DNA from: a virus
Length of the DNA: 53,676 nucleotides
Reading direction: 5' to 3' (one strand)
Virus record (IMG/VR): IMGVR_UViG_3300030101_001806
Location: 1-53,676 of that record
The notes beneath the pieces are model-generated. The model searched no databases, was not told where the DNA came from, and saw only the letters and a program-made list of their open reading frames with translations. The translations under genes were made by a program, and so were the position numbers. The first letter of the stretch is position 1. The number at the start of each line of letters is the position of its first letter. Below are positions 23,619 to 50,609 of the stretch, in pieces.

Positions 23619-24910
23619 TAATTAGATCCTATTGTTGTATCAAATATTGGTTTTATAAATTTTAATGCATCAACAGACTTGCCTTCATCATTTGTAAAGA
23701 AATATTTATTTTTTACTTGATTTCTTATCGTATCTAAATCTGCACCTTGATCTCTTAATTTTTCAACAAATTGCTTTTTATCATCTACTAAAAATTGATA
23801 AATATTTCTTTGATCTTTAACAAGTTCATCCTGCCACTTAGTTTGCAGTTTCTGTGCTAATTTTATATTCTCTTTTGAATTACTGCCCATGCTATTCCAT
23901 GTTGCGTCTGGATCTATATTATTTTCTTCTTTAAAATCTTTGAAAAACTGATTCCATGCTAAGTTTTTCTTTATACCTCTTTCAGCAGAGAGCAATATTA
24001 AATAATTTCCTGCTTTTGTATTTCCAAGACTTACTTGCATACTGCTTAAAAATGCTAATTCTTTATCTGACAATGCACCTTTCATTTGAGATACACTTTG
24101 CAATACCATGCCACTGCTCAATGATTCTAAATTCTCACCAATACCTATGGCATTTGAATCAAAATCAAAACCAAACCTATTCAATAATTTTTTACCTGTA
24201 TTTATTGTTGATTGACCAAAACCAGTTTGTGTCTTATCCATTAGACTTTTTATTTGATTTAACAAACCTAAATCTTGACTTGCTTTTAATGATTTGTCTA
24301 TTACTCCTGGCTGTTTATTCTGACCAGTTCCTTGACCATCGAAAAATGAAAATAAACCTGTTACAGTTCTTTTTCCAAATTCTTCATCCATCTTTTTGCC
24401 ACTGTCGATATTTACTGTTGTGCCACTTGTTTTTGGTGCTTCATAACTGGATTCCACATTGCCATCAGGTGTATAAACATTAAATTTAAAGAGAAGACCT
24501 CCTTGAGCATCCGTTTTTTGCTTTCCCCCATCATCCATTGCTGGTCCCATATTAACTACTCTTGGAGCACCAGTCTTTGGTTTCAGAGATCCTGCCAGTG
24601 ATGCAGTCAATGTTGCTCTTGTTTTATCAGCATCTGCTTGTGCTTGTCTATCTTTTAATAAATATGCTGCAGGTGTTACTGCTGCACTGCTTGCTGCACC
24701 AAGTGCTGTGGCTCCTGGCTGAGATGCTTGCTTGCCTAATTCAGAAAAATATAAAAGACTCAATAAAGCTGGATCTATAGGTTTTCTTGCAGGTGTTAAA
24801 GCAGTTGCCAATAAAGATGCTTGCTGTAAATTTGATGGCAAATTACTTAATGCACCTTGATTTAAATTATTCATATTTGTATTTGATGTTCCAAATAATC
24901 TTGGTGCCAT
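23618..24910 (-). CDS. Internal virion protein candidate (430 residues)
   Basis: An Ala/Gln/Leu-rich, mainly helical protein with an N-terminal Asn-rich segment containing GALSNLP (residues 19-25), a motif that recurs in other late proteins. The middle includes a Gly/Thr-rich beta-like portion (about 110-165), and the C-terminal half is helical and charged. No known domain is seen. It lies between two other ejection-protein candidates, and neighbouring stops and starts overlap, so it is probably expressed and packaged with them. Confidence 0.6.
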   Translation of the reverse strand: MAPRLFGTSNTNMNNLNQGALSNLPSNLQQASLLATALTPARKPIDPALLSLLYFSELGKQASQPGATALGAASSAAVTPAAYLLKDRQAQADADKTRATLTASLAGSLKPKTGAPRVVNMGPAMDDGGKQKTDAQGGLLFKFNVYTPDGNVESSYEAPKTSGTTVNIDSGKKMDEEFGKRTVTGLFSFFDGQGTGQNKQPGVIDKSLKASQDLGLLNQIKSLMDKTQTGFGQSTINTGKKLLNRFGFDFDSNAIGIGENLESLSSGMVLQSVSQMKGALSDKELAFLSSMQVSLGNTKAGNYLILLSAERGIKKNLAWNQFFKDFKEENNIDPDATWNSMGSNSKENIKLAQKLQTKWQDELVKDQRNIYQFLVDDKKQFVEKLRDQGADLDTIRNQVKNKYFFTNDEGKSVDALKFIKPIFDTTIGSN

Positions 24911-25920
24911 TATGCTCTCCTACCCATAGCATATAAACTTCCAGCAGTTCCTAGAGCACCTATTGTCTGACCATATATACTTGGCTGTTGTAAGAATTGT
25001 TGTCCTTCCTCTAAGGATATTGTTCTTTGGTCATATGGAACACCTTGTAATGCACCAAGTGCAAAATTTAACATTTGGAAAGGTCTTTCTCTTTGCTCAA
25101 CAAAATCAGCATATCCCAAATCAAGTGCTGCTTGGTCTAATCTTCTTCTTGCCTCACCAGCAGTTATAAGACCAAGTGCTTGTTGTTCATCTAATGCTTG
25201 AGTCAATGGTGCTAAATCTGCTTGTGCTTGTGCTGCCCTTATTCTTGATGCTTCATCTGTTTCATAGCCAACTCTTAATGCATCTTCTGCACCAAATCTT
25301 GCTGCCCTGTCAGCATCGAATCTGCCTGCACCGAATTCAAGTGCTTCTCTGCCTGCTTGTCTTCTTATATCTGCTCCTGCTCTTGATATCTCTGCATCTG
25401 TTAATGCTTCTCTTACACCTAATCTTGAACCACCAAATGCTCCTGCACGAACAGCATCTGCCCTATTGCCAATTTGTCTATTCTGCCTGTCTCTTTCTAA
25501 TTGTTCAAGTGCTGGATCGACTGCTGTTTGAAAGACATCTTGAAACCTGCCTGCCATCTCTGCATCAAAACTTGGACCAAGCAATTCTTCTCTTGTTGCA
25601 GCATCATATCCTTGACCAAGAGTATCAGTTATATTTGCAGCTTTATCTACAAATTGTTGTGTTCGATCTCGACTGCCTCTTAAAATGTCCATCCCTGCTC
25701 TTTCATCCTCAGTCAATCTTATTGGATTGCCTTGATCGTCTGTTCCATATTCTGCAATCCTTGCAGCAGGAAATGGTGCTGGTTCAGACTGTGCTAATTC
25801 CGATGCTTGCTCGAATATTTGTTTTCCTGCTGCAGAAACCCATTCAGGAATCTGTGTGCCTTGAACGACCTTTGATGAGTCTGGCAAAACGATTGGTTGA
25901 TTTGTGCAAAGTGAACCCAT
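24910..25920 (-). CDS. Internal virion protein candidate, Ala/Arg-rich (336 residues)
   Basis: A helical protein very rich in Ala, Arg, Gln and Glu from about residue 120 to 270, with repeated RAxxFGA-like elements, suggesting long helical bundles. The C-terminus holds LGALQGVPYDQ and IGALGTAGSLYAMGRRA, two copies of the recurrent late-protein GAL motif. Similar Ala/Arg-rich proteins in marine podoviruses are thought to be internal core or ejection proteins. The start is an ordinary ATG and the GNAT gene lies immediately upstream. Confidence 0.6.
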   Translation of the reverse strand: MGSLCTNQPIVLPDSSKVVQGTQIPEWVSAAGKQIFEQASELAQSEPAPFPAARIAEYGTDDQGNPIRLTEDERAGMDILRGSRDRTQQFVDKAANITDTLGQGYDAATREELLGPSFDAEMAGRFQDVFQTAVDPALEQLERDRQNRQIGNRADAVRAGAFGGSRLGVREALTDAEISRAGADIRRQAGREALEFGAGRFDADRAARFGAEDALRVGYETDEASRIRAAQAQADLAPLTQALDEQQALGLITAGEARRRLDQAALDLGYADFVEQRERPFQMLNFALGALQGVPYDQRTISLEEGQQFLQQPSIYGQTIGALGTAGSLYAMGRRA

Positions 25921-26358
25921 TTATCCCTCTATATATATAGAACCAATTCTCAAGAAACCTTGTCTTTCGTAAAATTTATCTTTACGGATGACATCTCCTG
26001 AGAAAACATGTCCTAATCTTAGTTGTAGTTTAACTTCTTTAACAATTTTTACAAAATGATTTAATATTTTTTTAGCAATGTCACTTTTTCTATAATCTTT
26101 CATAACATAATACCAAAGATCTCCAATGTAGTCCTCATCAGACCACCAATCTTTGTTTTTCTGGCCAGATATTGAACCTATTATTTTTTCACTATCTACA
26201 GCGACAAGTATTATTCCTGTGTGCAACAATTCATTTATTTTGTGAACAAGTTTTCCAGTATTTATTTTTGGAATATCAACCACAGTTTCCTCGTGCATCA
26301 TTTGTAACAGAAATATTATTCCTGATATATCGCCAACATTGGCTCTTCTTATTATCAT
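25921..26358 (-). CDS. GNAT-family N-acetyltransferase
   Basis: The N-terminal MIIRRANVGDISGIIFLL is the usual first strand and helix of GNAT enzymes. IILVAVDSEKIIGSISG gives the central strands, and LWYYVMKDYRKSDIAKKIL is motif A, where acetyl-CoA binds; the usual Gly in Q/RxxGxG/A is Asp here (RKSDIA). The ending FYERQGFLRIG is typical of the fold. It transfers an acetyl group to an unknown target. The placement among ejection-protein genes is odd and suggests it modifies a virion protein or enters the host with the DNA. Confidence 0.8.
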   Translation of the reverse strand: MIIRRANVGDISGIIFLLQMMHEETVVDIPKINTGKLVHKINELLHTGIILVAVDSEKIIGSISGQKNKDWWSDEDYIGDLWYYVMKDYRKSDIAKKILNHFVKIVKEVKLQLRLGHVFSGDVIRKDKFYERQGFLRIGSIYIEG

Positions 26359-26654
26359 TACATTGCACCTAAAGCACCCATTTCTTTTGGCATGTCTTCT
26401 TCCATTTTTTCATCTGGCATTTCTTCATCACCACCTTCTTTCTGAACAGCATTTATTAACATTTCAAGTTCTGGTAATAATTTCATTAAAACTTTTGCCA
26501 CTTGAGGTGTAATCGCAGAATCTAACATTACCAACTCTTCTTTTGTCATTTCAGCAAGTCTTGACATCAAAACTATTTGAATTGACTCAGATGGATTTTT
26601 TAAATTCTCTTTTGCTTCTTCTGGGACATTTATTCCCATCTCTTCTAAAGCCAT
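26358..26654 (-). CDS. Small acidic late protein (98 residues)
   Basis: A Met/Glu-rich helical protein with an acidic C-terminal third that ends KEMGALGAM, another copy of the GAL motif found in late proteins. No domain is recognised. Its start follows the preceding gene's stop directly and its stop overlaps the GNAT start. It could be a chaperone or small virion component. Confidence 0.6.
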   Translation of the reverse strand: MALEEMGINVPEEAKENLKNPSESIQIVLMSRLAEMTKEELVMLDSAITPQVAKVLMKLLPELEMLINAVQKEGGDEEMPDEKMEEDMPKEMGALGAM

Positions 26655-28031
26655 TTATATCTCCTTTTTTTTATATAAAACAGACCAATCTGTTGTTTTG
26701 CAAAATAAACCTATCACATAACAAGTTGGCTCTAATATTTTACGATATATTTTTCCAAGATAATCTGGTTTATTTCTTTTCTTGTAAATATAAGATATTT
26801 CATTAGCACGATGACCAGCAACATGTTTCCAAAATTTAACAAATCTGCCTTTTCTCATTTGCTTTACCATCCAAACTGCCCAGCAGTGATAACCATTTAC
26901 ATGAGTTGGTGTTAAATAATCTCTGGTAAATTTATAATCTAATACAACTTGATGTCTTGTCATTAACTTTTGTCTAGATAGTTCATTACAAATAACTCTT
27001 CCTCCAGCTGCAGCACCTATCGTTCCACCTATAACACCACCAAATCCTGGAAGTAAAGCATTGCCTATATATGTGCCAACAGTCGCACCAACTGCTTTTT
27101 TTGCAGATTTTTCAGGATCTTTACCTTTTGTAAATAATAAGTCTGTAAAGAATACACCAACACCAGCACCAACAGAACCACCAACATTTTGCTTACTGGT
27201 TAATCTATCGCCAACTCTGTCAAAATATCCTGGAGGTGTTGCTTTGTTAGATCCTGCAAAATCACTATAATCAAGAGTATCAGATCTACTAGCAGTTAGC
27301 TTACCACCTGCAGTTTCATTTCTATATGCATATTGAGGATTGTCTGCAGTTCCTATATTTCTCCTGTTATTTACATTAACATCTTTAGCAATAGTCTCAG
27401 TGCCAGTCTTTACAATTTGTTTTCCATCGACAACTCTATTTAATCTATTAAAATCATCTACTCTGCCTGATGCTTTTGCTGCATTCAAATTAGCTAACTC
27501 TGGATCGTAAAATAAATTCTCATTTTTTATAACATTAAATTGTTTATCAGAAATATTAAAATTTTTACTTATAGTCTCTGATGGAAGTTCACCAAAACCA
27601 AGACCAGACTTTGCTCCCTCAAATAATTTTTCAGAGAACTTTGCTCCTGTATCTGCTAAATATGGATCTGTAAATGCTCTACCAACACCTGTTGCTGCAC
27701 CTATAACAGCAGATTGTGTTATGTCTCGACCAACCTCTTTGGCTATCTCTCCTGGAGTTTTAAATCCTGAAGGGATCTGTCCTGAATTATACAGATCTTC
27801 ATATTCATCAAAAAGTTGACCTTCTGTTGCAGGATCGTATGTTCTTTCTCCTGTTTGGATTTTAGAGATCCACTGAAAAACTGGCATCTGAGAAGATCCA
27901 TATAAACTTTGCAACTGTTGTTGAGAAAGGTTTGGTTGATTAGTTTGTGTTTGGTAAACAGGAAAGCGATAAACACCATCTGCACCAATATCACTTATGT
28001 TTGTTAATGCTCCTAATTCCTCAACAGCCAT
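26655..28031 (-). CDS. Late protein with shared C-terminal domain, copy A (458 residues)
   Basis: It begins MAVEELGALTNISDIG, with the late GAL motif at residues 7-12. A Gln/Asn-rich segment follows, then a long mixed region, and a Gly-rich stretch that could be membrane-active near 320-345. The last 110 residues form a domain also found at the end of the protein at 49542-50609: IC-E--RQ, then YLTP-H--GYH, V--M-K, and KPDYLG-IY-KI-EP--YV-G. I know this ending from other phage virion proteins of unknown function. It probably belongs to the ejected or tail-associated proteins. Confidence 0.65.
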   Translation of the reverse strand: MAVEELGALTNISDIGADGVYRFPVYQTQTNQPNLSQQQLQSLYGSSQMPVFQWISKIQTGERTYDPATEGQLFDEYEDLYNSGQIPSGFKTPGEIAKEVGRDITQSAVIGAATGVGRAFTDPYLADTGAKFSEKLFEGAKSGLGFGELPSETISKNFNISDKQFNVIKNENLFYDPELANLNAAKASGRVDDFNRLNRVVDGKQIVKTGTETIAKDVNVNNRRNIGTADNPQYAYRNETAGGKLTASRSDTLDYSDFAGSNKATPPGYFDRVGDRLTSKQNVGGSVGAGVGVFFTDLLFTKGKDPEKSAKKAVGATVGTYIGNALLPGFGGVIGGTIGAAAGGRVICNELSRQKLMTRHQVVLDYKFTRDYLTPTHVNGYHCWAVWMVKQMRKGRFVKFWKHVAGHRANEISYIYKKRNKPDYLGKIYRKILEPTCYVIGLFCKTTDWSVLYKKKEI

Positions 28032-28379
28032 CTATGTTACCTCTAAAAAACTTACAACAACATGCAATCTGTCTGAATTTGCTGCTTGCACTTTTAATAT
28101 CTCACTTTCCTGTATTATAACTGGTTGTGTTAATAATTCAACAGTATTGTTTCCTGTAATAGATTTGGTTTTGAACAATGAAAAAACGTCTGATCCAGCT
28201 GTCAAAGTAACATCTATCGTTGAGCCACTACCACTGTCATCGTTCACAAGTATGCTTTTAACTATTGTTTGAGTCGCAGTTGGACAAGTATAAACAGTTG
28301 TATTGTTAGTTGTTGTTAAATCTACTTTTGCATTTTTGTAATTATTAGGCAAAGAAAAATCCTTTTGCTGTTGCTTCAT
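28032..28379 (-). CDS. Small beta-rich virion protein (115 residues)
   Basis: A Thr/Ser/Val-rich beta protein of a type common in marine phage tail regions: VDLTTTNNTTVYTCP, then a strand pair around TIVKSILVNDD and a hydrophobic close (LHVVVSFLEV). No catalytic motif. It probably forms part of the tail or a small decoration. It overlaps the next upstream gene by 35 bases. Confidence 0.6.
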   Translation of the reverse strand: MKQQQKDFSLPNNYKNAKVDLTTTNNTTVYTCPTATQTIVKSILVNDDSGSGSTIDVTLTAGSDVFSLFKTKSITGNNTVELLTQPVIIQESEILKVQAANSDRLHVVVSFLEVT

Positions 28380-28560
28380 CTTCTGCTTTAGAATTAGAAG
28401 TCTGAGTCATATTCGTTGTTTCTATATCAATCTGCTCAAGTGCTGCAATCAGTGCTTGATTAAATAATAACATTTCTGTAAATTTATTAAAAAAAGCTAA
28501 CTCTGACGCAGGCAATGATGCTATTAATGTTGGTGCTGTTGGCAATCTTATTGTGCTCAC
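28345..28560 (-). CDS. Small helical late protein (71 residues)
   Basis: Not recognised. An N-terminal proline-containing segment precedes one long helix (about 18-48) and an acidic tail. It is coupled to the gp10-like gene by a 4-base overlap at its start. It may act with that tail protein. Confidence 0.55.
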   Translation of the reverse strand: MSTIRLPTAPTLIASLPASELAFFNKFTEMLLFNQALIAALEQIDIETTNMTQTSNSKAEDEATAKGFFFA

Positions 28561-30443
28561 CTTGAACTATCCTCTCTTGCATTGACTCTAAAATCTCCCA
28601 AAGACCAATCATCAGCAGTTCCAGTGCTTGAATATTTAATTGCTATCTGCCTGCCTTTGGCTCTGGTGCTAACTTTTCTTGTTGATGATGTAACTGTGAA
28701 TGGACCTTTTGTAATCTCTGTAGCTTGTGGATATTTTCTTGATTTTAATTCAACAAATAAATTAGTGTCAGAGGTCATAGATGTATCTGGCACGATTTTA
28801 TCAATCATAAACAATCTACTTCCTGTTTCATCTATTTCTACTTCTGATGTTTCAATGTGGCAATTCATAGCTGAACCATCATCACTTGTTCCTGTTTCAT
28901 GATTATAAAGTTTAGCATCTTTATCAAAAGCAAAAGGAACTGTTCTAAAGCCAGTTGCGTCAGACCAAACATTTCTTTGAAGAGATCCAATAGACCAAAC
29001 ATTTTCAGAATAATTAAATGTTACATAGCTGTCTGGTTCTGGATTACTAACTGCAGTATTTGCTGTGCTTACATAAAACCATGTAACCTCATTAAATTTT
29101 TTATTATGCCCAACATGAATTTTATCTTGATATCTTAATTGCATTCTATCAAATACAAAGTGTTGAACAGAACAAGGAAGTTCTTGAATATTGCCATTAT
29201 AAACAAAGAAATTACTTTTACCAATCCAATAGATAGTGCCATCAACACTAATAGTTCCATTGATAGCAACAGCACCACAATTAACACCTAACAATCTAAA
29301 TGAAAATGTAAATGGTGGTCCAGTAAAAGTCATTGCATATGCTGCTTCATCTGTTTGTATAAAAGTCTCGTTTTTAGTTGGTGTTATTGCTACAATTTTA
29401 TTGCCAACTTCTAATCTCTGATCACCTGCAGTATTAGATGCTGTCACTGTAAAATTAGTAAAATCCTCTTGGTCTGAAAATCTAACTAACATTGGATCAA
29501 AAACACCATCAGAAAGATTGTTTGTTCCAGCAACGACTAAATGTCTATCTGGGAAAGATATGCTCAACATCCTATTTTGCGTTGGAACACCAGATGCACC
29601 TCCAAGACTTGAAACAAGGACTGCTCTTTGATTTTCGCCACCAGATGTATCCCAATAATATATTTGACCTAACCTATTATTGGCTAATAAATCGTCTCCC
29701 CAGATCTGCAAAGACCATTGTGTTGCTTCAAGAGAAACGTCTGATGTTGATGTTGTTCTTGCAGTTCCCCAAGTGCTGTCTCCCCAAGCACCAACTCCCC
29801 AACCAAGTGCGGGATCTGAACTTTGAATTCCGACACTTTCAGCATTACCAATAAGATATTTTATATTTAATGTCCCACCACCAGAAGAAACTGTGCTCGA
29901 TGCTGTGTCTGGAGACTCAAAAGAATAGCTGTTATCTGTGATTTTAGTTATCTCATAACCTTCAACTCTATTTAATGTATCAGCAGAGATACCACCTACA
30001 GCAGATGCACTATCTAAAACGACATAATCGCCTGTGGTCGCACCATGAGAAGTATCAGTAACAGTCACTGTTGTCGAGCCACTTGTTGTCGCAAGTGGAT
30101 TACTTAATGATGATGATGTTTTTCTAAGTGGTGTTATATCATACAAAACATCTGCTTTCAATATGTATAAATGTGAGTGTGTTCCTAGAGCAATTCTATC
30201 TGCACCATCATTTGTGCTTCTCCAAAAAATTATTTTTTTAGGTGTTCCTTGAGCTGTGGTCGTTGTGCTTGTTGCTGTTGTTCTAAAATAATCTTCTTGT
30301 TGCCAACCACCTATTTTTTCTGGATATCCATTTACAAATCTTACAAGATTGCCATCTACATAAAATGGTCCATTTTTACCTGCAGCATATTCTGTTATAT
30401 CTTTTACAATACCTGATTTAAATTTTAATAATCTTAATGTCAA
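28557..30443 (-). CDS. Tail nozzle / DNA-stabilisation protein (P22 gp10-like)
   Basis: A 628-residue beta-rich protein whose N-terminus (LKFKSGIVKDITEYAAGKNG, then FYVDGNLVRFVNGYPEKIGGW) is the recognisable start of P22 gp10-type proteins, which plug the portal-adaptor after packaging and form the short tail nozzle. It has repeated WGxxxWG elements near 215-230 and a beta-propeller-like middle. It is somewhat longer than P22 gp10 (472 residues). It lies after the lysozyme in the late block. It is good evidence for podovirus morphology. Confidence 0.82.
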   Translation of the reverse strand: MTLRLLKFKSGIVKDITEYAAGKNGPFYVDGNLVRFVNGYPEKIGGWQQEDYFRTTATSTTTTAQGTPKKIIFWRSTNDGADRIALGTHSHLYILKADVLYDITPLRKTSSSLSNPLATTSGSTTVTVTDTSHGATTGDYVVLDSASAVGGISADTLNRVEGYEITKITDNSYSFESPDTASSTVSSGGGTLNIKYLIGNAESVGIQSSDPALGWGVGAWGDSTWGTARTTSTSDVSLEATQWSLQIWGDDLLANNRLGQIYYWDTSGGENQRAVLVSSLGGASGVPTQNRMLSISFPDRHLVVAGTNNLSDGVFDPMLVRFSDQEDFTNFTVTASNTAGDQRLEVGNKIVAITPTKNETFIQTDEAAYAMTFTGPPFTFSFRLLGVNCGAVAINGTISVDGTIYWIGKSNFFVYNGNIQELPCSVQHFVFDRMQLRYQDKIHVGHNKKFNEVTWFYVSTANTAVSNPEPDSYVTFNYSENVWSIGSLQRNVWSDATGFRTVPFAFDKDAKLYNHETGTSDDGSAMNCHIETSEVEIDETGSRLFMIDKIVPDTSMTSDTNLFVELKSRKYPQATEITKGPFTVTSSTRKVSTRAKGRQIAIKYSSTGTADDWSLGDFRVNAREDSSR

Positions 30444-30445
30444 TT

Positions 30446-31890: not shown

Positions 31891-31892
31891 TA

Positions 31893-32465: not shown

Positions 32466-32473
32466 ATTATCTC

Positions 32474-36266: not shown

Positions 36267-36682
36267 TAGTCAATCCTTATAATTGCACTTGTTCCTGCTG
36301 CTGGAAAAACTATTTTAAAAGTTCCTGATGACACTGTAAAATCACCACCAAAATCTAAAACTGCTATAGCTTTATCACTATTAGATGAATTATATATTAA
36401 TGCTCCTCTAGCAGTAAATGATGCACTTGTAAATTCTGGATCTGCTGCATCAAAAAAAGCTGTGGTTCCTGATGTTGAAACAGTTGTACTTGTAAGAGTA
36501 ACACCACCTGCTGTATAACCAGTTCCAGAGACTTCGTTACTGGTTGAATAAGCTGTGGTTCCTGCTCCTAGACTTGCACTGCTTGTAAACAATGCTAATT
36601 TTATTGTGTCAGTTGCTAGCTGATGACCTTCTTGTAAAATCTCAGATTTGAAACTGGTGCACATTGCTTGTGTAATTGCCAT
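36266..36682 (-). CDS. Small beta virion protein (138 residues)
   Basis: It starts MAITQAMCTSFKSEILQEGH and continues with TDTIKLALFTSSASLGAGTTAY, a pattern found in many marine phages near the tail genes. It is a beta-rich, Thr/Ser-rich protein without enzyme motifs, probably a tail or fibre-base component. The start and stop overlap neighbouring genes by single bases. Confidence 0.7.
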   Translation of the reverse strand: MAITQAMCTSFKSEILQEGHQLATDTIKLALFTSSASLGAGTTAYSTSNEVSGTGYTAGGVTLTSTTVSTSGTTAFFDAADPEFTSASFTARGALIYNSSNSDKAIAVLDFGGDFTVSSGTFKIVFPAAGTSAIIRID

Positions 36683-37309: not shown

Positions 37310-39187
37310 TTAATTTCCCCATGTTCCATCACCCCAAGTGCCACTTCCCCACTCTTGGTTTACAGTGATACTTTCAGTTCCTGTTGCTCCTGTGCCTGCA
37401 ACTCCTGTTTCTATAACTTGTGAAGATGATACTTCATTTCCAACATCTCCTGTTCCTGAGACGCCAGAAGTTCCAGTTACATTAATTTGTACATTGCCAT
37501 CACCAGATAATCCAAATCCTTCAACTGCACCTGTGCCTGCAACTCCTGTTTCAACTGCATTAAGTTCGAGTGATTCTGTGCCTACTGCTCCTGTTCCTGC
37601 TACTCCTGTCTCGGTTATAGATGCCTGTGGAACTTCTGTACCTATTGCACCTGTGCCTGCAACTCCTGTTTCTGTTATTGTACAATCAACAATTATACTT
37701 TCTGAACCAATAGCACCTGTGCCTGCAACTCCTGTTTCTGTTATAGATGCGAATGGCACTTCTGTACCTATTGCACCTGTGCCTGCAACTCCTGTTTCTG
37801 TTATAGATGCTTCTGGTATCTCTGTTCCTATTGCTCCTGTGCCTGCAATACCTGTAACACCTACATCAGTTCCAGAGAATGTATTATAATTACCAATAGC
37901 ACCTGTTCCTGCAACTCCTGTTTCTGTTATAGTAACATCTGCTTCAATGCTTTCTGTTCCTGTCGCTCCTGTTCCTGCAACACCAACCTCTGTGATAGAT
38001 GCTTCAATACTTTCGTTTCCTGTTGTTCCTGTTCCAGCAACTCCTGTTTCATCTATGGATGCAAATGGTGTTCCTGTTCCTATTGCTCCTGTTCCAGAAA
38101 CTCCTGTTTCATCAAAAACAAAATCAGATTCAACAATTTCTACACCTGTTGTTCCTGTTCCAGCAACACCTGTTGCTACAACTTGTGAGGATGGTATCTC
38201 TGCACCAGCAACACCTGTGCCAGCAACACCAGAAGTTCCAGTTACATTGATTTGGACGTTACCATTGCCTGATACACCAAATGGCTCGACTGCACCTGTT
38301 CCAGCAACACCAACTTCTGTGATACTTGCTTCTAATGTTACAGATGGTGTAAATGATACATTGATAGCACCACCCATTCCCGAATGATATTGGCAATAAT
38401 AATATAAATTATCTGGTGCATCACCACTCACAACGATAGTTGTTTTATATCCACTATCGTCTTTTGTAACACCTGTGGTGTATTCTGAACCAACACCATG
38501 AGTGCCATCAGAAGTTGTTGAAAATCTTACTGGATGACTTGTTGCACCAGACCAATCAAAGACATATGTATTACCTCTAATTAATGATAATGTTGGTTGT
38601 TGTGTTCCATCAATAACATATTTATTACCACTGTCTGTTGATACAACTGTAACTGTATATGTTGTTGGTGATGATGATGTTGTTCCTACTGCACCTGTTC
38701 CTGCTACTCCTGTTCCTGTTATATCAGCACCAAACTCAATACTTTCGTTTCCTACTGCACCTGTGCCTGCTACTCCTGTTTCATCAATTTGTGCTTGAAT
38801 TTCAAATGTGCCTAGAGCACCTGTTCCTGCATTTGAAGAAGCATTTGGTGTTGAACTTTGCACTACTTCTGGTGTAAAAACACCAATTCTTGCATGTCCA
38901 GGAATGCCAATAGAATTTTGACTTTTTTCTATTTTAGATGCAAAAATATTTTGTGTAAATCCCAATAAAATAGTTATATTTTCTGGATCATTATCTGGTC
39001 TTGGATTAAATAATGCAGTTGCGTCTATTACATTTTTTGCAGGTGTAAGTTGAGGATGCTTAGGATCAAACTCTTCTGGCTCAACTCGTAAATTATCATA
39101 AGTTGTTTTTAATTTTGGATAAGGAACTTCAAAGCCAGAAATATCACTTATAGCTTTTGATTTAGATCCTCTTGCATACTTAGCCAT
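37310..39187 (-). CDS. Repeat virion protein with cupredoxin-like domain (625 residues)
   Basis: Residues 1-80 resemble the N-terminal attachment domain of marine phage structural proteins that normally hold a four-Cys zinc finger; here those positions appear as Ser14, Ser17, Glu36 and Glu39. About 175-279 looks like a cupredoxin, with His218 (SHPV), Cys265, His268 and Met271 (CQYHSGM) spaced as in amicyanin. Around it lie about 17 copies of a GVAGTGA(I/V)GTE-type repeat of roughly 20 residues, some within a larger 50-residue duplication. The C-terminus is WGSGTWGDGTWGN. It is probably a long fibrous tail or capsid protein. Copper binding is a prediction only. Confidence 0.75.
   Translation of the reverse strand: MAKYARGSKSKAISDISGFEVPYPKLKTTYDNLRVEPEEFDPKHPQLTPAKNVIDATALFNPRPDNDPENITILLGFTQNIFASKIEKSQNSIGIPGHARIGVFTPEVVQSSTPNASSNAGTGALGTFEIQAQIDETGVAGTGAVGNESIEFGADITGTGVAGTGAVGTTSSSPTTYTVTVVSTDSGNKYVIDGTQQPTLSLIRGNTYVFDWSGATSHPVRFSTTSDGTHGVGSEYTTGVTKDDSGYKTTIVVSGDAPDNLYYYCQYHSGMGGAINVSFTPSVTLEASITEVGVAGTGAVEPFGVSGNGNVQINVTGTSGVAGTGVAGAEIPSSQVVATGVAGTGTTGVEIVESDFVFDETGVSGTGAIGTGTPFASIDETGVAGTGTTGNESIEASITEVGVAGTGATGTESIEADVTITETGVAGTGAIGNYNTFSGTDVGVTGIAGTGAIGTEIPEASITETGVAGTGAIGTEVPFASITETGVAGTGAIGSESIIVDCTITETGVAGTGAIGTEVPQASITETGVAGTGAVGTESLELNAVETGVAGTGAVEGFGLSGDGNVQINVTGTSGVSGTGDVGNEVSSSQVIETGVAGTGATGTESITVNQEWGSGTWGDGTWGN
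37349..38335 (-). repeat. Coding tandem repeats, GVAGTGA-type units
   Basis: About 15 of the 17 repeat units of the 625-residue protein lie here, roughly 60 bases apart; two more are at 38678-38782. The DNA reads repeatedly as CCTGTGCCTGCAACTCCTGT on the plus strand with variants. Two larger blocks (around 37400-37540 and 38160-38310) are diverged copies of each other, containing GNVQINVTGTSGV. The frame stays open throughout, so the repeats serve the protein. Confidence 0.85.
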
Positions 39188-41795: not shown

Positions 41796-41807
41796 AAATT
41801 ACTCTCC

Positions 41808-42359: not shown

Positions 42360-42384
42360 AATGCTATCTCCTTATATTAAAGTG

Positions 42385-42870: not shown

Positions 42871-42872
42871 TA

Positions 42873-43805: not shown

Positions 43806-43817
43806 GATAAACCTCCT

Positions 43818-44216: not shown

Positions 44217-44218
44217 GT

Positions 44219-44416: not shown

Positions 44417-44483
44417 TTATGTCTGCCTCTCCAGACATGGAAACACCTGTAACATTAATTGTTACATCTTTTTTATTTTCCAT
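44337..44483 (-). CDS. Possible small acidic protein (48 residues)
   Basis: Hand translated from ATG 44483 to TGA 44337. It begins MENKKDVTINVTGVSMSGEA and ends in a charged acidic tail. It overlaps the Lys-rich 32-residue gene at its start (11 bases) and the 65-residue gene for 80 bases, which lowers confidence. Its start context fits the tight packing of this region. Confidence 0.35.
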   Translation of the reverse strand: MENKKDVTINVTGVSMSGEADINEHNRTSSDNKKESEDEKICDSREDD

Positions 44484-44571
44484 ATCCCTTCATCTTTTTC
44501 TTTTTCATTGGCTTCTTTTTCATTACCATTTTCTTTTTCTTCATGCCTTTTTTCTTTTTGCCATGATCCAT
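44473..44571 (-). CDS. Lysine-rich mini-protein (32 residues)
   Basis: Hand translated from ATG 44571. It is preceded by a perfect AGGAGG eight bases upstream, the best ribosome site I saw in the late block. Of 32 residues 17 are Lys and 6 are Met; the sequence starts MDHGKKKKGMKKKK. It may bind DNA, RNA or membranes. The strong ribosome site argues for a real, well-expressed product. Confidence 0.6.
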   Translation of the reverse strand: MDHGKKKKGMKKKKMVMKKKPMKKKKMKGYGK

Positions 44572-44642
44572 GATTTTGCCTCCTTTTAGCAGTTTTGAAA
44601 ATTTAGTCCTATTTAACATTGTAATCGTTTCTGTTCAATAAA

Positions 44643-45389
44643 TCAAGTTGTGTCGTCTGGTAAATTACTTAATGCACCTTTTACAGCAACTCCACCAAAA
44701 CCTAAAATTTTTAAAATATCTCCTAACTTACCAACATATCTTCCACCATCTTGTTGCATTGTGCTTAACTCATCATAAATAGGTGTGTCTGGTGGTAAGT
44801 TTTTAATATCTGCATCTCCAAATAATTGTACCAGTGCTTCATCAGACCCAAGATCTTTTAATGCTCTCATGCGATGACGACCTTCATGCATATCTATTTG
44901 TATTATTGGTTTATCATCAGCACCTTTTAATACTTTATATCCCAACTGTGGAACACCAGAAGTATATTCTGGACCACCTAATGGTATTTTTTCTGATATT
45001 GTGTCTTTAATTGATGCGACATTTTCATTGGTTTGGCTCATCATGTCTTTAGATATAGGATCAAACATGTAATCATCAGGAAGTTTATCGTCTGTCAGCC
45101 TTGCAGCAAGTTTCCTATAATCATCTGGATCTATAAGACCAACAGAATAAAAATCTCTAAACTGAGTACCACCACCACTTTGTGCTGATCTTGCAACACT
45201 ATCAAGATCTTGTTTATCAAAGAGTTCAAAAGACTCTGGTGAGAACATATCAATCTTTTTTAATTTTTCACCACCTTGAGTCACAATCCTCCTTGCTTCA
45301 ACTGTTGGGTCTTTTGATTTCATAGCAAGAGAATTAATCCAACTTTTTAATTCTGGAGATATGGATCTTAGATACTTGCTTATATTCAT
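44643..45389 (-). CDS. Late protein with ParB-like motif (248 residues)
   Basis: Most of the protein is not recognised. IQIDMHEGRHRMRALKDLG near residues 165-183 resembles the ParB/sulfiredoxin-like nucleotide-binding motif (GRHRxxAL). It ends GALSNLPDDTT, another copy of the recurrent late motif. Its start overlaps the upstream gene by 4 bases. A virion component or an enzyme carried in the virion are both possible. Confidence 0.6.
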   Translation of the reverse strand: MNISKYLRSISPELKSWINSLAMKSKDPTVEARRIVTQGGEKLKKIDMFSPESFELFDKQDLDSVARSAQSGGGTQFRDFYSVGLIDPDDYRKLAARLTDDKLPDDYMFDPISKDMMSQTNENVASIKDTISEKIPLGGPEYTSGVPQLGYKVLKGADDKPIIQIDMHEGRHRMRALKDLGSDEALVQLFGDADIKNLPPDTPIYDELSTMQQDGGRYVGKLGDILKILGFGGVAVKGALSNLPDDTT

Positions 45390-46210
45390 TCTGTAAGATC
45401 CTTTTTGAGAATATTAACAACATTCTCCTCAAAATAAGTTTCTCTGCTTTCTCCTGGAAAGTCATCTGGATATGCATCATAAAAATCTAGATTTCCATCC
45501 AACTGCTCTATCATTAAATCATTAGCTTTTTCAATATTGCCATCTGCTTCTTCTAAAAAATCATCAGCACTTTTCGTAAAAAGATTGTCTGCATTGCCTT
45601 TGTTAAACCATGCAAAAAGTGTTTTTGGATTTGGTATAAGTTTTTTAAGTGAACCAGCATCTGCAGAATCCATTACCTCATCAATCTTTTTTACAGTTGT
45701 AAATGGTATCTCTTTGGCGACTTTTGCCTTTGGCACATTACCTAAAGCACCAATTAATGGCTCTGCTGCAACAGTCGCCAATGCACCTTTGCCCATAGTT
45801 TTCAATGTTCCTCTCTTTTGCTCATCTACTATCTCATCTGCTATACTTTTATTCTTAGATTTTAAACTTCTTAAAAATTTAATTGTTTGCTGTGTAAATG
45901 GGAATGCTTTGGCTACTGATTCACCAAGAGTAACTGCACCAATCGTGCCTTCAATAGCATAATCAAGTGGTGTTTGTGCTGTTTTTAATCCTCGGACAGA
46001 TTCATCTAAACCAAAAGCAAGTCCGACAGGTGTAAATTCTAAAACACCAGATGCTTCTGCCATGTTAAGATCTGGTCTTGTTGATCCTGTAAAACCTCGA
46101 GCAGTCTTTTGTGCCATATAATTATCCATGCCAAGATTAGTTAAAGCACCAGCAATATATTGCTTTGTTCTTTCTCTAAGTGTTGGATTGTATGGTCTTA
46201 GTTCAGCCAT
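45386..46210 (-). CDS. Late structural-type protein (274 residues)
   Basis: It begins MAELRPYNPTLRERTKQYIAG and has two copies of the recurrent motif (AGALTNLG at residues 20-27 and IGALGNVP near 155). A mildly hydrophobic Gly/Ala-rich middle is followed by a charged, helical C-terminal half. Similar N-termini occur in marine phage late proteins without known function. It is a candidate virion or ejection protein. Confidence 0.65.
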   Translation of the reverse strand: MAELRPYNPTLRERTKQYIAGALTNLGMDNYMAQKTARGFTGSTRPDLNMAEASGVLEFTPVGLAFGLDESVRGLKTAQTPLDYAIEGTIGAVTLGESVAKAFPFTQQTIKFLRSLKSKNKSIADEIVDEQKRGTLKTMGKGALATVAAEPLIGALGNVPKAKVAKEIPFTTVKKIDEVMDSADAGSLKKLIPNPKTLFAWFNKGNADNLFTKSADDFLEEADGNIEKANDLMIEQLDGNLDFYDAYPDDFPGESRETYFEENVVNILKKDLTE

Positions 46211-46392
46211 TACACTTGACCACTACTGAGTTCTCTGGCCAGTATCTGTAATGTTTCCTTAAATCCTTTGTCTAATGTTTTTGCTAACTTCGCAAACTTC
46301 TTTGGACTTAATTCGTCTGTAGATATTTTTTTAGATTTTAAAAATTTTTTTGCTGCTCTTATCTCTGCATTCGCAACTTTTTTAACTGACAT
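46210..46392 (-). CDS. Small basic protein (60 residues)
   Basis: A Lys/Ala-rich helical protein (SVKKVANAEIRAAKKFLKSK at its start) with no known domain. It overlaps the oxygenase gene by 11 bases upstream and the 274-residue gene by one base downstream. It belongs to the run of small basic late proteins. Confidence 0.6.
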   Translation of the reverse strand: MSVKKVANAEIRAAKKFLKSKKISTDELSPKKFAKLAKTLDKGFKETLQILARELSSGQV

Positions 46393-47047
46393 TATTTTGC
46401 TCCGAAGTTAAACTTATATTTGCTGAAAAAGATCTTCTTTCACCTTCACCAAAGAAAGGATAAACAGTATGAAACAAATGTGATGGAAATATAAAAAGAT
46501 CTCCAACGACAGGCATGCAACATAAATTTCCTGGAGTGACAATAGAACTAGAGCCATAAATAAAATCAATGTAACCTTCTGTTGCGTATTTTTCTTTGGT
46601 GTTTCTTGTGTTCTTTTCACTTATTCCCTCTGGCACTTTTAAATATGCAACACAAGAAAATGTACCATTGGTGTGAATGTGAGTTGGATTGTAATCTGCC
46701 TCAAAAGATCTTACAAACCAAGAACTGTGAATGATTATCTGCTGTGGTATTGCATCATTTCCTCTTGTTCCTTTTTCTTTCATGAACTCATCATGCAAAC
46801 CTCTTGTAAGATTGCCAAGAAATTTTCCAAAAGGATTCATCTCTGGTGCGTTCATATCACATCTTAGTTCTTCTGCAACATGACCAACCAACTCTGCTGA
46901 TTCATCTAGTTCTTTTCTTTTATTATCATCTTGCAATATTTTATCACATTGCTCATTTAAAGAATTTACAAAATCCATTGGCATTTTTGCACGAAGTATT
47001 CGTGGTCCAAATGGTCTTAATATATCAACTTGAAGTTCTTGATTCAT
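46382..47047 (-). CDS. 2-oxoglutarate/Fe(II) oxygenase-like protein
   Basis: The start is set at ATG 47047, just after the stop of the upstream gene; an in-frame Met at 47104 would overlap that gene by 56 bases. The 221-residue product has the double-stranded beta-helix pattern of phage-type 2OG oxygenases: THIHTNGTFSCVAYLKVPE with candidate iron ligands His123 and His125, FIFPSHLFHTVYPF with His190 or His193, and ERRSFSANI with an Arg for 2-oxoglutarate. Cyanophages carry relatives near structural genes. It may hydroxylate a virion protein; the substrate is unknown. Confidence 0.78.
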   Translation of the reverse strand: MNQELQVDILRPFGPRILRAKMPMDFVNSLNEQCDKILQDDNKRKELDESAELVGHVAEELRCDMNAPEMNPFGKFLGNLTRGLHDEFMKEKGTRGNDAIPQQIIIHSSWFVRSFEADYNPTHIHTNGTFSCVAYLKVPEGISEKNTRNTKEKYATEGYIDFIYGSSSIVTPGNLCCMPVVGDLFIFPSHLFHTVYPFFGEGERRSFSANISLTSEQNNVS

Positions 47048-47048
47048 A

Positions 47049-47306
47049 CTACCATGCCTTACAAGACCAATATCTTGCTTTTGTTTTTGGTCCAGGATTA
47101 TCACAGTTGTGCCTTGATCTAAAATTGCTCCTGCGTTTTGGCTGATTCTTTTTTATTTTCATGTTAGGATCTCCGAATGTAACTTTTTTTACTTTACCAC
47201 CATCCATAACATAAACGACAGACTTCTTTTTACCATAAGATGGTTCGCCTTTACCAATGCGTCTTGGCTTGTTAAGTGTAACCTTTCTGCCACGATATTC
47301 AGCCAT
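47049..47306 (-). CDS. DUF5872-like small basic protein (85 residues)
   Basis: The N-terminus starts MAEYRGRKVTLNKPRRIGKG. The C-terminus NFRSRHNCDNPGPKTKARYW followed by SCKAW is a compact Cys-bearing motif seen in phage proteins labelled DUF5872. The product is highly basic. It is probably a small virion or nucleic-acid-binding protein. It starts inside the stop of the next small gene (TAATG). Confidence 0.75.
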   Translation of the reverse strand: MAEYRGRKVTLNKPRRIGKGEPSYGKKKSVVYVMDGGKVKKVTFGDPNMKIKKNQPKRRSNFRSRHNCDNPGPKTKARYWSCKAW

Positions 47307-47464
47307 TATTTGCCTTTGTGGACTTTTTGAATCTCAAATGATGCTTTTAAACTTGAACCTTTATGTGCTTTATAACCACCTGCAGGATTTTTCATAAGTT
47401 TAAAACCTTTGCCAGACTTCATCCAGTGAAAACCTTTTGGTGCTTCAACTGACTTCTTTGCCAT
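47306..47464 (-). CDS. Small basic protein (52 residues)
   Basis: Hand translated from ATG 47464 to a stop that overlaps the following ATG (TAATG). It begins MAKKSVEAPKGFHWMKSGKG and is rich in Lys and Gly with several aromatic residues (HWM, YKAH). It is one of a chain of coupled small basic genes and is similar in style to proteins found in cyanophages. The function is unknown. Confidence 0.7.
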   Translation of the reverse strand: MAKKSVEAPKGFHWMKSGKGFKLMKNPAGGYKAHKGSSLKASFEIQKVHKGK

Positions 47465-47466
47465 AA

Positions 47467-47742
47467 TTAACCTTTCTTTTTTGTTTTCTTCTTTTTACCT
47501 AAAAGATCTGAATCTGCTTTTCTGGCACCACCTTTACCACTGACAAAACTTTTTACACGACCCATTGCCCAAGAGTGTTGTGAAGTTTTTGGTCTTGAAC
47601 CAGAACTAAAGAATGCACCTTGACCTCTTTTGTAAACTTTGTCTAGTGTTGACTTGCTGAACCTACTCGCTCCTGGAATCGAGGAATATCGACCCATGTC
47701 TTTTTTAGACTTGCTCTTTTTCTTCTTAGTTGTTGCTGCCAT
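47467..47742 (-). CDS. DUF5824-like basic protein (91 residues)
   Basis: A strongly basic N-terminus (MAATTKKKKSKSKKD) precedes a conserved-looking core with STLDKVYKRGQGAFFSSGSR and SQHSWAMGRVKSFVSG, which I know as DUF5824 from phage proteins, and the end is Lys-rich. It probably binds nucleic acid. It starts at the same base where the upstream gene ends. Confidence 0.75.
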   Translation of the reverse strand: MAATTKKKKSKSKKDMGRYSSIPGASRFSKSTLDKVYKRGQGAFFSSGSRPKTSQHSWAMGRVKSFVSGKGGARKADSDLLGKKKKTKKKG

Positions 47743-47930
47743 TAACCTTTGCTCCTTTGCTTACTAATTTTTTGCATCATTGCTTTTGTTAACTTGCCTT
47801 CTTTATATAGCTTGGCAGTCCTTTTTATCTCTCGTTCTCTTGCTTTTGGATTCTTAGCACCTGCCACATACTTCTTTGGCACGCCTTTTTTGGTCTTTGG
47901 AACTTTTTTAAACTTTCTTTTTCCTGGCAC
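47742..47930 (-). CDS. Small basic protein (62 residues)
   Basis: A Lys/Arg-rich protein (KRKFKKVPKTKKGVPKKY near the start) ending in a helical KLTKAMMQKISKQRSKG. It overlaps the 52-residue gene upstream by 23 bases. No domain is recognised. It is part of the small basic cluster. Confidence 0.65.
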   Translation of the reverse strand: MPGKRKFKKVPKTKKGVPKKYVAGAKNPKAREREIKRTAKLYKEGKLTKAMMQKISKQRSKG

Positions 47931-48066
47931 TTTTTTCTGCCCTCCTAAAATCTTTCTTTGATGGTGATCCTTTTGTTCCTCTTTTTCTCATCTTCTCTTT
48001 GGATCCAGCTTTTATTCGTTTTCTTTTTGCATGAATGTTAGCATACAATCCACGACGATTAGTCAT
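47908..48066 (-). CDS. Conserved small basic phage protein (52 residues)
   Basis: Hand translated from ATG 48066. It begins MTNRRGLYANIHAKRKRIKA and continues GSKEKMRKRGTKGSPS, a pattern I recognise as highly conserved in unrelated phages, especially cyanophages. The function is unknown; its charge suggests RNA or DNA binding. It overlaps the upstream gene end by 8 bases and the next gene start by 23 bases. Confidence 0.78.
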   Translation of the reverse strand: MTNRRGLYANIHAKRKRIKAGSKEKMRKRGTKGSPSKKDFRRAEKSARKKKV

Positions 48067-48601
48067 TAGGAAGATTCCTCAATGCACCCATTGATGGACC
48101 ATCAAAATTTCCCTCCAGCATTCCTGTCATCAACTCTCCCATGATTCGCTGATTAGGAACATCGCTCTTTTGATAAACTTGTGCAAGATCTTTTACTTCA
48201 TCAATACTTAATTGAAATGCACCATCTTTGTCAGTAAGTTTAGTGATTATTGAATCAGCAACTTCGTCTGCACCTGCAATATCAATGATGTCTTCTAAAT
48301 CAATTTCATCACCTGATTGTGCCATTGCTCTAAAAACAGCACTTGGACCATCAGCACCTTGTCTCATAAGATTATTAGCAATAGTCTGAGTTGTGTTTGG
48401 CAACATTTTAAATTGCTCATCAACATCCATCCCTAGATCTTTTCTACCTAAATTTTCTATGCCAGATCTTAAAACAGTATCTGCATCTTTATCAAAAAGT
48501 TTTTTAGAATCGACCTCAGCACCTCTGCCTGCTTTTTTTGTTGGCATGGGTCTATTGATAGCACCCAGAGCAGTTCTTAATCCTCTGCCAAACATACTCA
48601 T
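48059..48601 (-). CDS. Late protein ending in the GAL motif (180 residues)
   Basis: Not recognised. It begins MSMFGRGLRTALGAINRPMP and is mostly helical and acidic; an EF-hand-like acidic stretch is not convincing. It ends GPSMGALRNLPND, a clear copy of the recurrent late motif at the extreme C-terminus. The start overlaps the preceding stop (ATGA). Probably a virion component. Confidence 0.6.
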   Translation of the reverse strand: MSMFGRGLRTALGAINRPMPTKKAGRGAEVDSKKLFDKDADTVLRSGIENLGRKDLGMDVDEQFKMLPNTTQTIANNLMRQGADGPSAVFRAMAQSGDEIDLEDIIDIAGADEVADSIITKLTDKDGAFQLSIDEVKDLAQVYQKSDVPNQRIMGELMTGMLEGNFDGPSMGALRNLPND

Positions 48602-49053
48602 TTTCCTGCCTCAAATGTACCTAAAGCACCCATCATATTTTGATCTAATGTGTCTGTCATTCCTGGAGTCATTTCATCTAATCCCTCTGTTAAGAGTCTG
48701 TCTGTTTTATAACTTTCCTCTCTCATCTCTGGTGGAGGTGGTTGTTGATTTAAAAGTTCTTGTAACTCTGGTGGAATGATGTAGTTGTTTACTTCTGTGT
48801 CTGACATCATAGAATCATCGATTCCTAAAAATGCAAGATCTGCTCTTTTTCTTGCGACACCTGCTTTCATAAGCATTTCCAGTTCTTGTTGTAATCCTGG
48901 ATTCATTTTAAAAATTTCTGCTTGAGATGTGGTCGGCATAGGATTAAAAGCATTCGTTTGCATTTGTGTTCCTTGCATTGGACCCATTTCCATTGCTGGT
49001 TTTAGAGTGTCTTCTCTATCAGACATTGCTCCTTTATCTTTATGTCCTGGCAT
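48598..49053 (-). CDS. Late protein with Met/Pro-rich middle (151 residues)
   Basis: The start is ATG 49053, with GGGAGAAAGAAAA upstream; an in-frame Met at 49104 lies in the upstream small gene. The protein begins MPGHKDKGAMSDREDTLKPA, has Met/Gln/Pro-rich segments and ends MMGALGTFEAGK, again the GAL motif at the C-terminus. No known domain. Probably a small virion or assembly protein. Confidence 0.6.
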   Translation of the reverse strand: MPGHKDKGAMSDREDTLKPAMEMGPMQGTQMQTNAFNPMPTTSQAEIFKMNPGLQQELEMLMKAGVARKRADLAFLGIDDSMMSDTEVNNYIIPPELQELLNQQPPPPEMREESYKTDRLLTEGLDEMTPGMTDTLDQNMMGALGTFEAGK

Positions 49054-49177
49054 TTTTCTTTCTCCCTTTTTTCTTTTTCTTCGCCAATGCTCGTAAGTCA
49101 GCACCAGTTATTTTGTTTCTTGGCTTTGCGACTCTTGCCAACTTTTTCTGCTTTGGTGAGTATTTACTAAAAGGCAT
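49040..49177 (-). CDS. Conserved small basic phage protein (45 residues)
   Basis: Hand translated from ATG 49177. It starts MPFSKYSPKQKKLARVAKPR and ends in a Lys/Arg-rich tail after ITGADLRALAKK, a sequence I recognise from many phage genomes. The function is unknown. The start overlaps the upstream stop (TAATG) and the end overlaps the next gene by 14 bases. Confidence 0.78.
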   Translation of the reverse strand: MPFSKYSPKQKKLARVAKPRNKITGADLRALAKKKKKGRKKNART

Positions 49178-49452
49178 TACATCACCTTTGGCGAACCATG
49201 ACCAAGTATCTCGTCCATCATACCTCTCATGTCACCACTGTCAACTTTCATAATTTTAACTTTTACATCGCCATCCATTTCTTCTTCCTGCTCTTCTTCC
49301 TCAGGCATAATCATTTCTTGCATGCAAAGTAAAAGAAAATTTGTTAATTGTTCCTCTGTTAACTCTAATCCTTCAGAGTCATGAGGAAAGCCCATCTTCT
49401 CTTCAAAGAGTTTTGCGTTTTCTTCGAAGTTTCCTATTTTTACTTCTGCCAT
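49177..49452 (-). CDS. Small acidic protein (91 residues)
   Basis: A helical N-terminal half (NFEENAKLFEEKMGFPHD) and a Glu-rich stretch (PEEEEQEEEMDG near 50-62) followed by Met/Gly-rich sequence. It is acidic, unlike its small basic neighbours. AAGGAGA lies before its ATG. The function is unknown. Confidence 0.65.
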   Translation of the reverse strand: MAEVKIGNFEENAKLFEEKMGFPHDSEGLELTEEQLTNFLLLCMQEMIMPEEEEQEEEMDGDVKVKIMKVDSGDMRGMMDEILGHGSPKVM

Positions 49453-49549
49453 TCTTGTCTCCTTTGAACTTTGATTTAATATAATCTCTGATAAAAATTA
49501 TTTTATCAACAAATTCTTTCATATACTTTATTATAAAATCTTTAATCAT
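49403..49549 (-). CDS. Possible small basic protein (48 residues)
   Basis: Hand translated. ATG 49549 overlaps the stop of the 355-residue gene; the frame begins MIKDFIIKYMKEFVDKIIFI and ends in a very basic tail. It overlaps the start of the 91-residue gene by 50 bases, so it may be a chance frame, but it fills the only gap in this part of the operon and its start is coupled. Confidence 0.38.
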   Translation of the reverse strand: MIKDFIIKYMKEFVDKIIFIRDYIKSKFKGDKNGRSKNRKLRRKRKTL

Positions 49550-50609
49550 TCAAGTATCTCCTGATTTTACCAACGACATAAACTAATGGTTCTGCTATTT
49601 TCATATAAATCATGCCAAGATAATCTGGTTTCTTTTTAAATAAAATGTGTTTAATGTGATTGGTTCTTCTTCTTGCTAGATGGTTGCCAATCGCTGTTAT
49701 AATTTTACTTTTCTTCATGCCATTAACGAAAGGTCTAAATAAAAAGTGATAACCTTCTTGATGCAGTGGTGTTAAATATTTTTTCTGATAAATGTACCAG
49801 ATTTTCATAGCTTTTGACCAATCATCCAAACCTGTCTGACGATACATCTCTGTGCAAATTATTGATTTGTCATCTCCTGGATCTGGATCTGACTTCTCAC
49901 CTCTGTTCTCAAGTGTAACTGCACGACTAAATGCTGGATCAAATGCTTGGTTGCCAGTCTTTGGATCTATACTATCTCTAATATTAGATTGATATATATT
50001 ATCTGAGGCAAACTCACCTGTGGTTTTTATATCATCATCAAATTGACCTCCTAATATAGCATCTTCGTAAGTCATAATATTCCCTGCTCCTCCTGTAAAT
50101 GGTGCAAGGTCTTGATAATTACCTGTAAAACCAGATGATTTATAACCAGATCTTGTTGAGAATGGTTGAGTCTTTCCACCTATACTTGATGGTGCCACAT
50201 CTAAAGATGCATATTTAGGACTGTTTGCGAAGAAATCTGTTAATGATGTTTTACTTATAAACTCAGGATTTTCAACACCTTTACTTTTTTGATAGTCAAC
50301 AACCTCTTGACGCAGATTACCTAAAGCACCTGTTCCTGTGCCTGCTCTTTTCATTGATTCCATAAGTCCTAATTTTTCATTGCCTTGTAACTTATTTGCT
50401 ATATTTTCTGCTTGAGTTCTTCCGACCATAGTTCCAAATAAAAGAGCATCACCAACTCCAGGAAGAAGTGATAAAGGTGCTGCAGAGGGAATATTTATTT
50501 TTGTATCTGTAAATGGCAAACCAACAGAACCAGTATTTAAATCTAAAAGGTTAGATGTTAATTGATTAAACTGTTGTTGTGAGATTGGTCCTCTTTGTCT
50601 TGGTGCCAT
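49542..50609 (-). CDS. Late protein with shared C-terminal domain, copy B (355 residues)
   Basis: The last 105 residues match the end of the 458-residue protein at 26655-28031: IC-E--RQ, YLTP-H--GYH, V--M-K, R-N-I, and KPDYLG-IY-KI-EP--YV-G. The N-terminal part is different, with a Gln-rich start, a hydrophobic Pro/Leu stretch near 45-60 and GTGTGALGNLRQ near 92-103, another copy of the late motif. It lies directly after the portal gene. Probably a virion protein. Confidence 0.68.
   Translation of the reverse strand: MAPRQRGPISQQQFNQLTSNLLDLNTGSVGLPFTDTKINIPSAAPLSLLPGVGDALLFGTMVGRTQAENIANKLQGNEKLGLMESMKRAGTGTGALGNLRQEVVDYQKSKGVENPEFISKTSLTDFFANSPKYASLDVAPSSIGGKTQPFSTRSGYKSSGFTGNYQDLAPFTGGAGNIMTYEDAILGGQFDDDIKTTGEFASDNIYQSNIRDSIDPKTGNQAFDPAFSRAVTLENRGEKSDPDPGDDKSIICTEMYRQTGLDDWSKAMKIWYIYQKKYLTPLHQEGYHFLFRPFVNGMKKSKIITAIGNHLARRRTNHIKHILFKKKPDYLGMIYMKIAEPLVYVVGKIRRYLND

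Follow-up and report, generated by a model that had tools for sequence, protein, structure and literature searches.

Locus and Relatives

The stretch of DNA analysed here (IMG/VR record IMGVR_UViG_3300030101_001806, 53,676 nucleotides, hereafter the window) is a 53.7-kb phage contig with early genes mostly on the plus strand and late genes on the minus strand, and a short peptide of the GALSNLP kind, referred to below as the GAL motif or tag, recurs among its late gene products. The portal and adaptor of the window match the SU10 portal and adaptor families of Pfam, and its capsid protein matches the Phage_capsid_4 and Mu gpT-like families; a search of the capsid protein against solved structures gave no match. 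The nearest cultured relatives are the Roseobacter phages CRP-901 and CRP-902. The window portal is 70% identical to the CRP-901-type portal over its full length, and the window shares with CRP-901 the close portal, capsid and ejection genes and the late gene order by which CRP-901-type phages are recognized.

For comparison, 165 related contigs were gathered via capsid, portal and ejection-protein searches, and six cultured relatives, two sister-group sets (80 loci), 15 extra ejection loci and eight long contigs were added. Genes in the relatives were called mechanically as the longest open frames, so that some N-terminal distances may be a few residues off, and near-duplicates were dropped on the basis of shared 12-mers. 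Candidates for a binding partner of the motif were sought by gene presence in 10 genomes of the clade versus four outgroups. In one contig, G001 (77,758 bases; L370-L374), the portal, capsid, scaffold and GroES genes are each present in two versions, and one of its portals is only 39% identical to that of the window; the contig is probably two joined phages or a mixed record.

Every copy of the motif reported in the original prediction lies where it had been placed, and one further copy, at 25036-25056, had been overlooked. The gene blocks and motif copies of the window are as follows (aa, amino acids).

21393-28031, minus strand: ejection block with proteins at 21393, 23618, 24910, 25921 (GNAT), 26358 and 26655; second home of the tag
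24836-24856, minus strand: GALSNLP, residues 19-25 of the 430-aa ejection-block protein (23618-24910); N-terminal tag
25036-25056, minus strand: GALQGVP, residues 289-295 of the DNA ejection protein (24910-25920)
26358-26378, minus strand: GALGAM-stop (MGALGAM), extreme C-terminus of the 98-aa helical/acidic protein (26358-26654)
27993-28013, minus strand: GALTNIS, residues 7-13 of the 458-aa protein (26655-28031); N-terminal tag
44643-50609, minus strand: portal-to-GroES cargo interval, home of the tagged accessory proteins
44658-44678, minus strand: GALSNLP, 11 residues from the C-terminus of the 248-aa Srx/ParB-like protein (44643-45389)
45731-45751, minus strand: GALGNVP, residues 154-160 of the 274-aa protein (45386-46210)
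46130-46150, minus strand: GALTNLG, residues 21-27 of the same 274-aa protein; N-terminal tag
48068-48088, minus strand: GALRNLP, nine residues from the C-terminus of the 180-aa protein (48059-48601)
48610-48630, minus strand: GALGTFE (MGALGTFE), 10 residues from the C-terminus of the 168-aa protein (48598-49104)
50310-50330, minus strand: GALGNLR, residues 94-100 of the 355-aa protein (49542-50609), the first gene past the portal

The tag is kept in relatives of several of these proteins. Most relatives of the 23618-24910 protein have GALTPI, GALNNI, GALGGL or GALATL near the N-terminus, those of the 49542-50609 protein carry N-terminal GALGNL, GALRNL or GALGSL, and the L089 homologue of the 180-aa protein has GALGGL at its C-terminus. 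In CRP-901, whose host is Roseobacter FZCC0083, the tagged proteins include gp35, gp66 and gp68. The GALGTFE of the repeat protein at 37310-39187, which had been counted as a further copy, borders a GVAGTGAxG repeat and probably represents a different element, and GALRALL (51881-51901, inside the portal) and GALIYN (36386-36406, in the 36266 protein) are conserved parts of folded proteins.

Three neighbouring features can be recorded separately. The 625-aa repeat protein (37310-39187) contains about 14 copies of GVAGTGA[IV]G, and homologues of it occur in each of the 10 clade genomes as well as in three of the four outgroups. A 2OG-Fe(II) oxygenase (PF13759) is encoded at 46382-47104 within the cargo interval and has no tag. 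The 49542-50609 and 26655-28031 proteins, one from each tagged block, have a common C-terminal module of about 110 residues (YLTPxHxxGYH ... KKPDYLGxIYxKIxEPxxYVIG).

Frequency and Form of the Motif

The GAL motif is real and far above chance. In the 38 late proteins of the window, GAL.N occurs seven times, compared to a mean of 0.28 after residue shuffling and 0.43 after dipeptide shuffling, with a maximum of three in 1000 shuffles; the 24 early proteins contain no GAL. The proteins encoded between portal and GroES in the 165 contigs contain 116 copies of GALxx[LIVM], versus 12.4 (maximum 21) in shuffled sequences, and the stricter form GALxN[LIVM] is found 38 times in such proteins of related contigs versus 1.0. 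An unbiased motif search using one member per family and a dipeptide-shuffle control ranked GAL.NL, GAL.N and GAL..L first in the clade, and no comparable recurrent motif stood out when the HTVC023P-type interval was searched. An origin by composition or chance was rejected on these shuffle controls.

The consensus is [LMIFVY]-G-A-L-[GS]-[NG]-[LIV]-[PG]. Substitution counts show a rigid G-A-L core with a hydrophobic residue in front and GSL as a distant second: [LIVMFY]GAL is found 83 times in the clade versus 4.8 after shuffling, and [LIVMFY]GSL 10 times versus 2.1. Behind GAL, G or S is followed by N or G and then by L, I, V or M, often with P next. Copies are enriched in the first 40 residues (44 observed, 20.6 expected) and in the last 20 residues (26 observed, 7.7 expected), and there are many internal copies too. 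Ordinary clustering yields about 27 families with a recurrent or strict-form GAL, a few of which are conserved GALs of folded proteins, and 10 families carrying the motif are left after very permissive merging.

The clearest terminal case is the 98-aa protein (26358-26654), in which a helical domain is followed by a linker and then by the tail MGALGAM. All 25 distinct homologues of this 26358-type protein end in GAL[GSK]xx, within six to seven residues of the stop. Across 16 aligned members the MGAL columns are invariant (entropy 0), whereas the linker, 20-32 residues long and acidic to proline/glutamine-rich, has an entropy of 1.79 compared to 0.79 for the domain. A low-confidence structure model of the 98-aa protein has a disordered tail, with a predicted local distance difference test (pLDDT) score of about 44, and the C-terminal tail of the 248-aa protein (44643-45389), whose body gives a weak sulfiredoxin/ParB fold match (best E 0.024), is likewise modelled as disordered (pLDDT about 31). 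An invariant motif behind a diverging linker, placed in a disordered tail, is the pattern usual for a short linear motif.

In CRP-901 and CRP-902 (L003 39134-42842 and L169 39154-44405), several accessory proteins open with one leader, in the forms MANPVKGAISQLGExVID, MANPIKGALGEIGK, MANPVKDLFSTLGRGVID and MGNPLKDFIGDLGQGVID. This common leader is perhaps a drifted form of the tag.

Distribution among Gene Blocks and Clades

The copies of the motif are concentrated in two parts of the genome. The density of GALxx[LIVM] is 18.1 per 10,000 residues between portal and GroES (307 distinct proteins) and 0.4-0.7 per 10,000 residues in unassigned genes located ahead of the portal, past GroES or on the opposite strand; in the related contigs, none is found in the scaffold, capsid protein, adaptor, decoration protein or GroES. 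In 11 genomes with 93 copies, the portal-GroES interval accounts for 53 and the ejection block for 25, 78 together, and the remaining 15 lie elsewhere, in sequence more than three times as long as the two blocks. The binomial p value for this concentration, 5e-34, is an overstatement because orthologues are not independent. The motif had been described as recurring in many unrelated late proteins. Its carriers are indeed unrelated; they are accessory and ejection proteins, and head and tail building blocks lack the tag, so that a general late-protein feature is rejected by this regional analysis.

The tag is also limited to one clade. The portal-GroES interval has 79 copies of GALxx[LIVM] in this clade and none in 22,364 residues of HTVC023P-type and 5,758 residues of DSL-LC04-type intervals, and therefore the tag can be regarded as a trait of this clade. 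An ancient trait of the wider portal family was considered and rejected, the motif being unrecognisable in HTVC023P, Caulobacter RW, DSL-LC04 and QDWS535.

Identity of the Carriers

Pfam and PHROGs scans left most carriers without a family. Among 57 larger carriers, five have ART-PolyVal, three PBECR5 and one LysM in Pfam, with an effector domain in eight of the 57, and the remaining ones have no Pfam match. In the ejection block, the 24910-25920 protein matches phrog_4287, DNA ejection protein, in PHROGs. Polyvalent phage proteins, whose domains include ART and PBECR and whose genes lie next to virion genes, have been predicted to be packaged in the capsid and injected (Iyer et al. 2017, PMC5512222). 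Because of the ART-PolyVal and PBECR domains and the DNA ejection protein match, the carriers belong to classes expected inside the head. The carriers in CRP-901-related marine phages are probably carried inside the shell and injected.

A Putative Loading Signal

With moderate confidence, we favour the reading that the recurrent peptide is a short linear docking motif by which accessory and ejection proteins are loaded into the procapsid. The motif, kept by selection on the peptide, would mark virion-internal proteins of two kinds: the ejection proteins, and accessory 'effector' proteins that are encoded between portal and GroES and form a varying set. The tag would most likely bind a common partner lining the procapsid, and this binding would load otherwise unrelated proteins ahead of DNA packaging; the partner might be the scaffold (42873), the capsid protein (40884) at its inner face, the core of the portal (50609) or a small protein specific to the clade. 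A docking peptide for a common virion partner had been one of two proposals in the original prediction. As to its kind, this proposal is strongly supported by the unrelated carriers, the terminal and disordered sites, the conservation beyond the linker, the two gene blocks and the restriction to one clade. The 10 clade genomes all encode two small proteins of the window that the four outgroups lack, and these may be considered as candidate partners.

47049-47306, minus strand: 85-aa protein
49177-49452, minus strand: 91-aa acidic protein

The 26358-type protein, present in nine of the 10 clade genomes and in none of the same outgroups, is also a candidate.

Several points weigh against a loading signal. 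The motif occurs internally and at both protein ends, which is less tidy than the N-terminal capsid-targeting sequence (CTS) of phage T4. Among portal-GroES proteins of at least 170 aa, 37 have no GAL at all compared to 77 with the full motif, indicating either that the motif is not an absolute requirement or that variants exist. The large ejection-block protein at 21393 also lacks it, and a role after injection would yield much of the same pattern.

A bolder form of the loading idea, which we put forward only tentatively, is an open-ended code built on one modular six-residue tag and used by a whole group of abundant marine phages, in which GAL-x-x-L gained in any disordered region, at either end or in a linker, would make a protein virion cargo, and the reader would be a protein found only in this clade. 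Phages with such a code could freely swap injected effectors.

Alternative Roles for the Peptide

Among the alternatives, a role after ejection, in which the injected proteins would use the motif to attach to the ejection conduit, to the cell membrane or to a single host protein, survives best, although we consider it unlikely. In its favour, several C-terminal copies follow a hydrophobic stretch, as in LFSVPLAGTVGYGALQSV and IIPPMATAVGVGALAGL, and several N-terminal copies follow an amphipathic leader, as in MAKLGKFITGALGEI and the CRP-901/902 leader MANPVKGAISQLGE. However, a hydrophobic stretch is missing from the acidic or proline-rich tails in which many copies are found, and the hydrophobicity of the flanks is 0.27, compared to 0.30 for whole proteins.

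Less probable still is a purely structural role, in which tagged proteins would bind each other or the portal barrel and the motif would hold an internal core in the mature head with no loading role as such. The 26358-type protein would suit this role, being clade-specific, almost universal and itself terminated by the motif, but no partner domain was identified in support of it, and the low-confidence 26358 model shows the tail not docked on the protein itself.

The terminal positions of the tag resemble those of the capsid-targeting peptides of T4, which are cut off by the prohead protease, and the motif could accordingly be pictured as a cleavage site of a maturation protease. We regard this as very doubtful: where a copy lies six residues ahead of the stop, cutting would take off next to nothing, internal and double copies occur frequently, and Pfam and PHROGs scans of the main late proteins turned up no prohead protease, though most of these proteins lack a family match.

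Slightly more doubtful even than this is shared descent or gene conversion, with the tagged genes as shuffled pieces of one ancestral gene and the motif as a functionless relic. Some carriers, namely the 49542 and 26655 proteins, have common modules, and identical codons are in slight excess within genomes. On the other hand, at least 10 families persist after very permissive merging and about 27 by normal clustering, and the motif is invariant at the end of diverged linkers (in one family, the 26358 type) and occurs at either terminus.

Peptide or DNA Element

The second proposal of the original prediction was a DNA-level element that happens to be translated, and a 19-base identity between 24840-24858 and 44662-44680 had been noted. 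The identity is present and follows from the codons at both sites. The sequence ACCTAAAGCACC has four exact copies and one copy with a mismatch in the window, whereas 0.17 are expected with at most one mismatch; it is the complement of GGT GCT TTA GGT, which encodes GALG. In relatives, the GAL codons are near background usage and 32 different 9-mers encode GAL, so that ACCTAAAGCACC is mainly the preferred codons for GALG. Identical GAL codons within genomes are slightly in excess (14 pairs compared to 5.85 expected, p 0.016), and this excess is stronger in the window (p 0.003 and 0.0001, the latter for GALG codons); the within-genome likeness may stem from short segments that were now and then exchanged between cargo genes. 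Despite the four exact copies and the window GALG codons being more alike than codon usage predicts, a DNA element can be dismissed as having a negligible chance, since all four exact copies encode GALG in the GAL reading frame and the near-background codon choice with its 32 nine-mers represents free synonymous variation in relatives. The DNA-level proposal was thus rejected on the codon analysis, and the motif acts at the peptide level.

Significance and Comparison with Known Systems

How short-tailed phages pick accessory proteins for packaging is poorly known. A readable tag would allow the injected effectors of uncultured marine phages to be listed straight from sequence (about 27 families, most without a known domain), and it would be a small handle for finding the partner and for loading reporters into CRP-901-type virions. 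GAL-x-x-L appears to be a loading label for phage cargo of a kind not described so far; no description of the motif was found in the open-access PubMed Central literature, searched by a few terms.

Some tag carriers share ART-PolyVal or PBECR domains with the polyvalent proteins of Iyer et al. (2017), but the part of that work considered here names no shared loading motif of such kind (PMC5512222), and most carriers in the present set match no known domain. The DarB protein of phage P1 has an N-terminal packaging signal, and a short terminal stretch is sufficient for targeting to the phage head (PMC9024508). The likeness to the GAL motif lies in this use of a short terminal stretch as a packaging signal, whereas DarB is a single protein with a signal of 30 residues, and the two are compared by function, not by sequence.

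In phage T4, diverse virion-internal, ejected proteins have only the short CTS in common (PMC3012670). The GAL motif is similarly a short peptide common to otherwise unrelated proteins encoded with virion genes. However, the T4 signal is N-terminal and directs proteins into the scaffolding core of T4, whereas GAL is found at N-terminal, C-terminal and internal sites, has another consensus and occurs in marine phages with an SU10-type portal and adaptor.

The targeting peptide of encapsulins, GSLxIGSLK (TVGSL type), loads cargo into an HK97-fold shell, where its hydrophobic residues occupy a pocket on the inside (PMC10960027). It is short, hydrophobic, glycine-rich and usually C-terminal, and its [I/V]-G-S-L core resembles [M/L/I]-G-A-L. 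On the other hand, encapsulins are host compartments, the residue preferred between G and L differs, and the second anchor of the GAL motif lies three residues past the L. The likeness is a resemblance and a lead rather than shown homology, and the tag would provide, for an HK97-type phage shell, an independent counterpart of the way encapsulins load their cargo.

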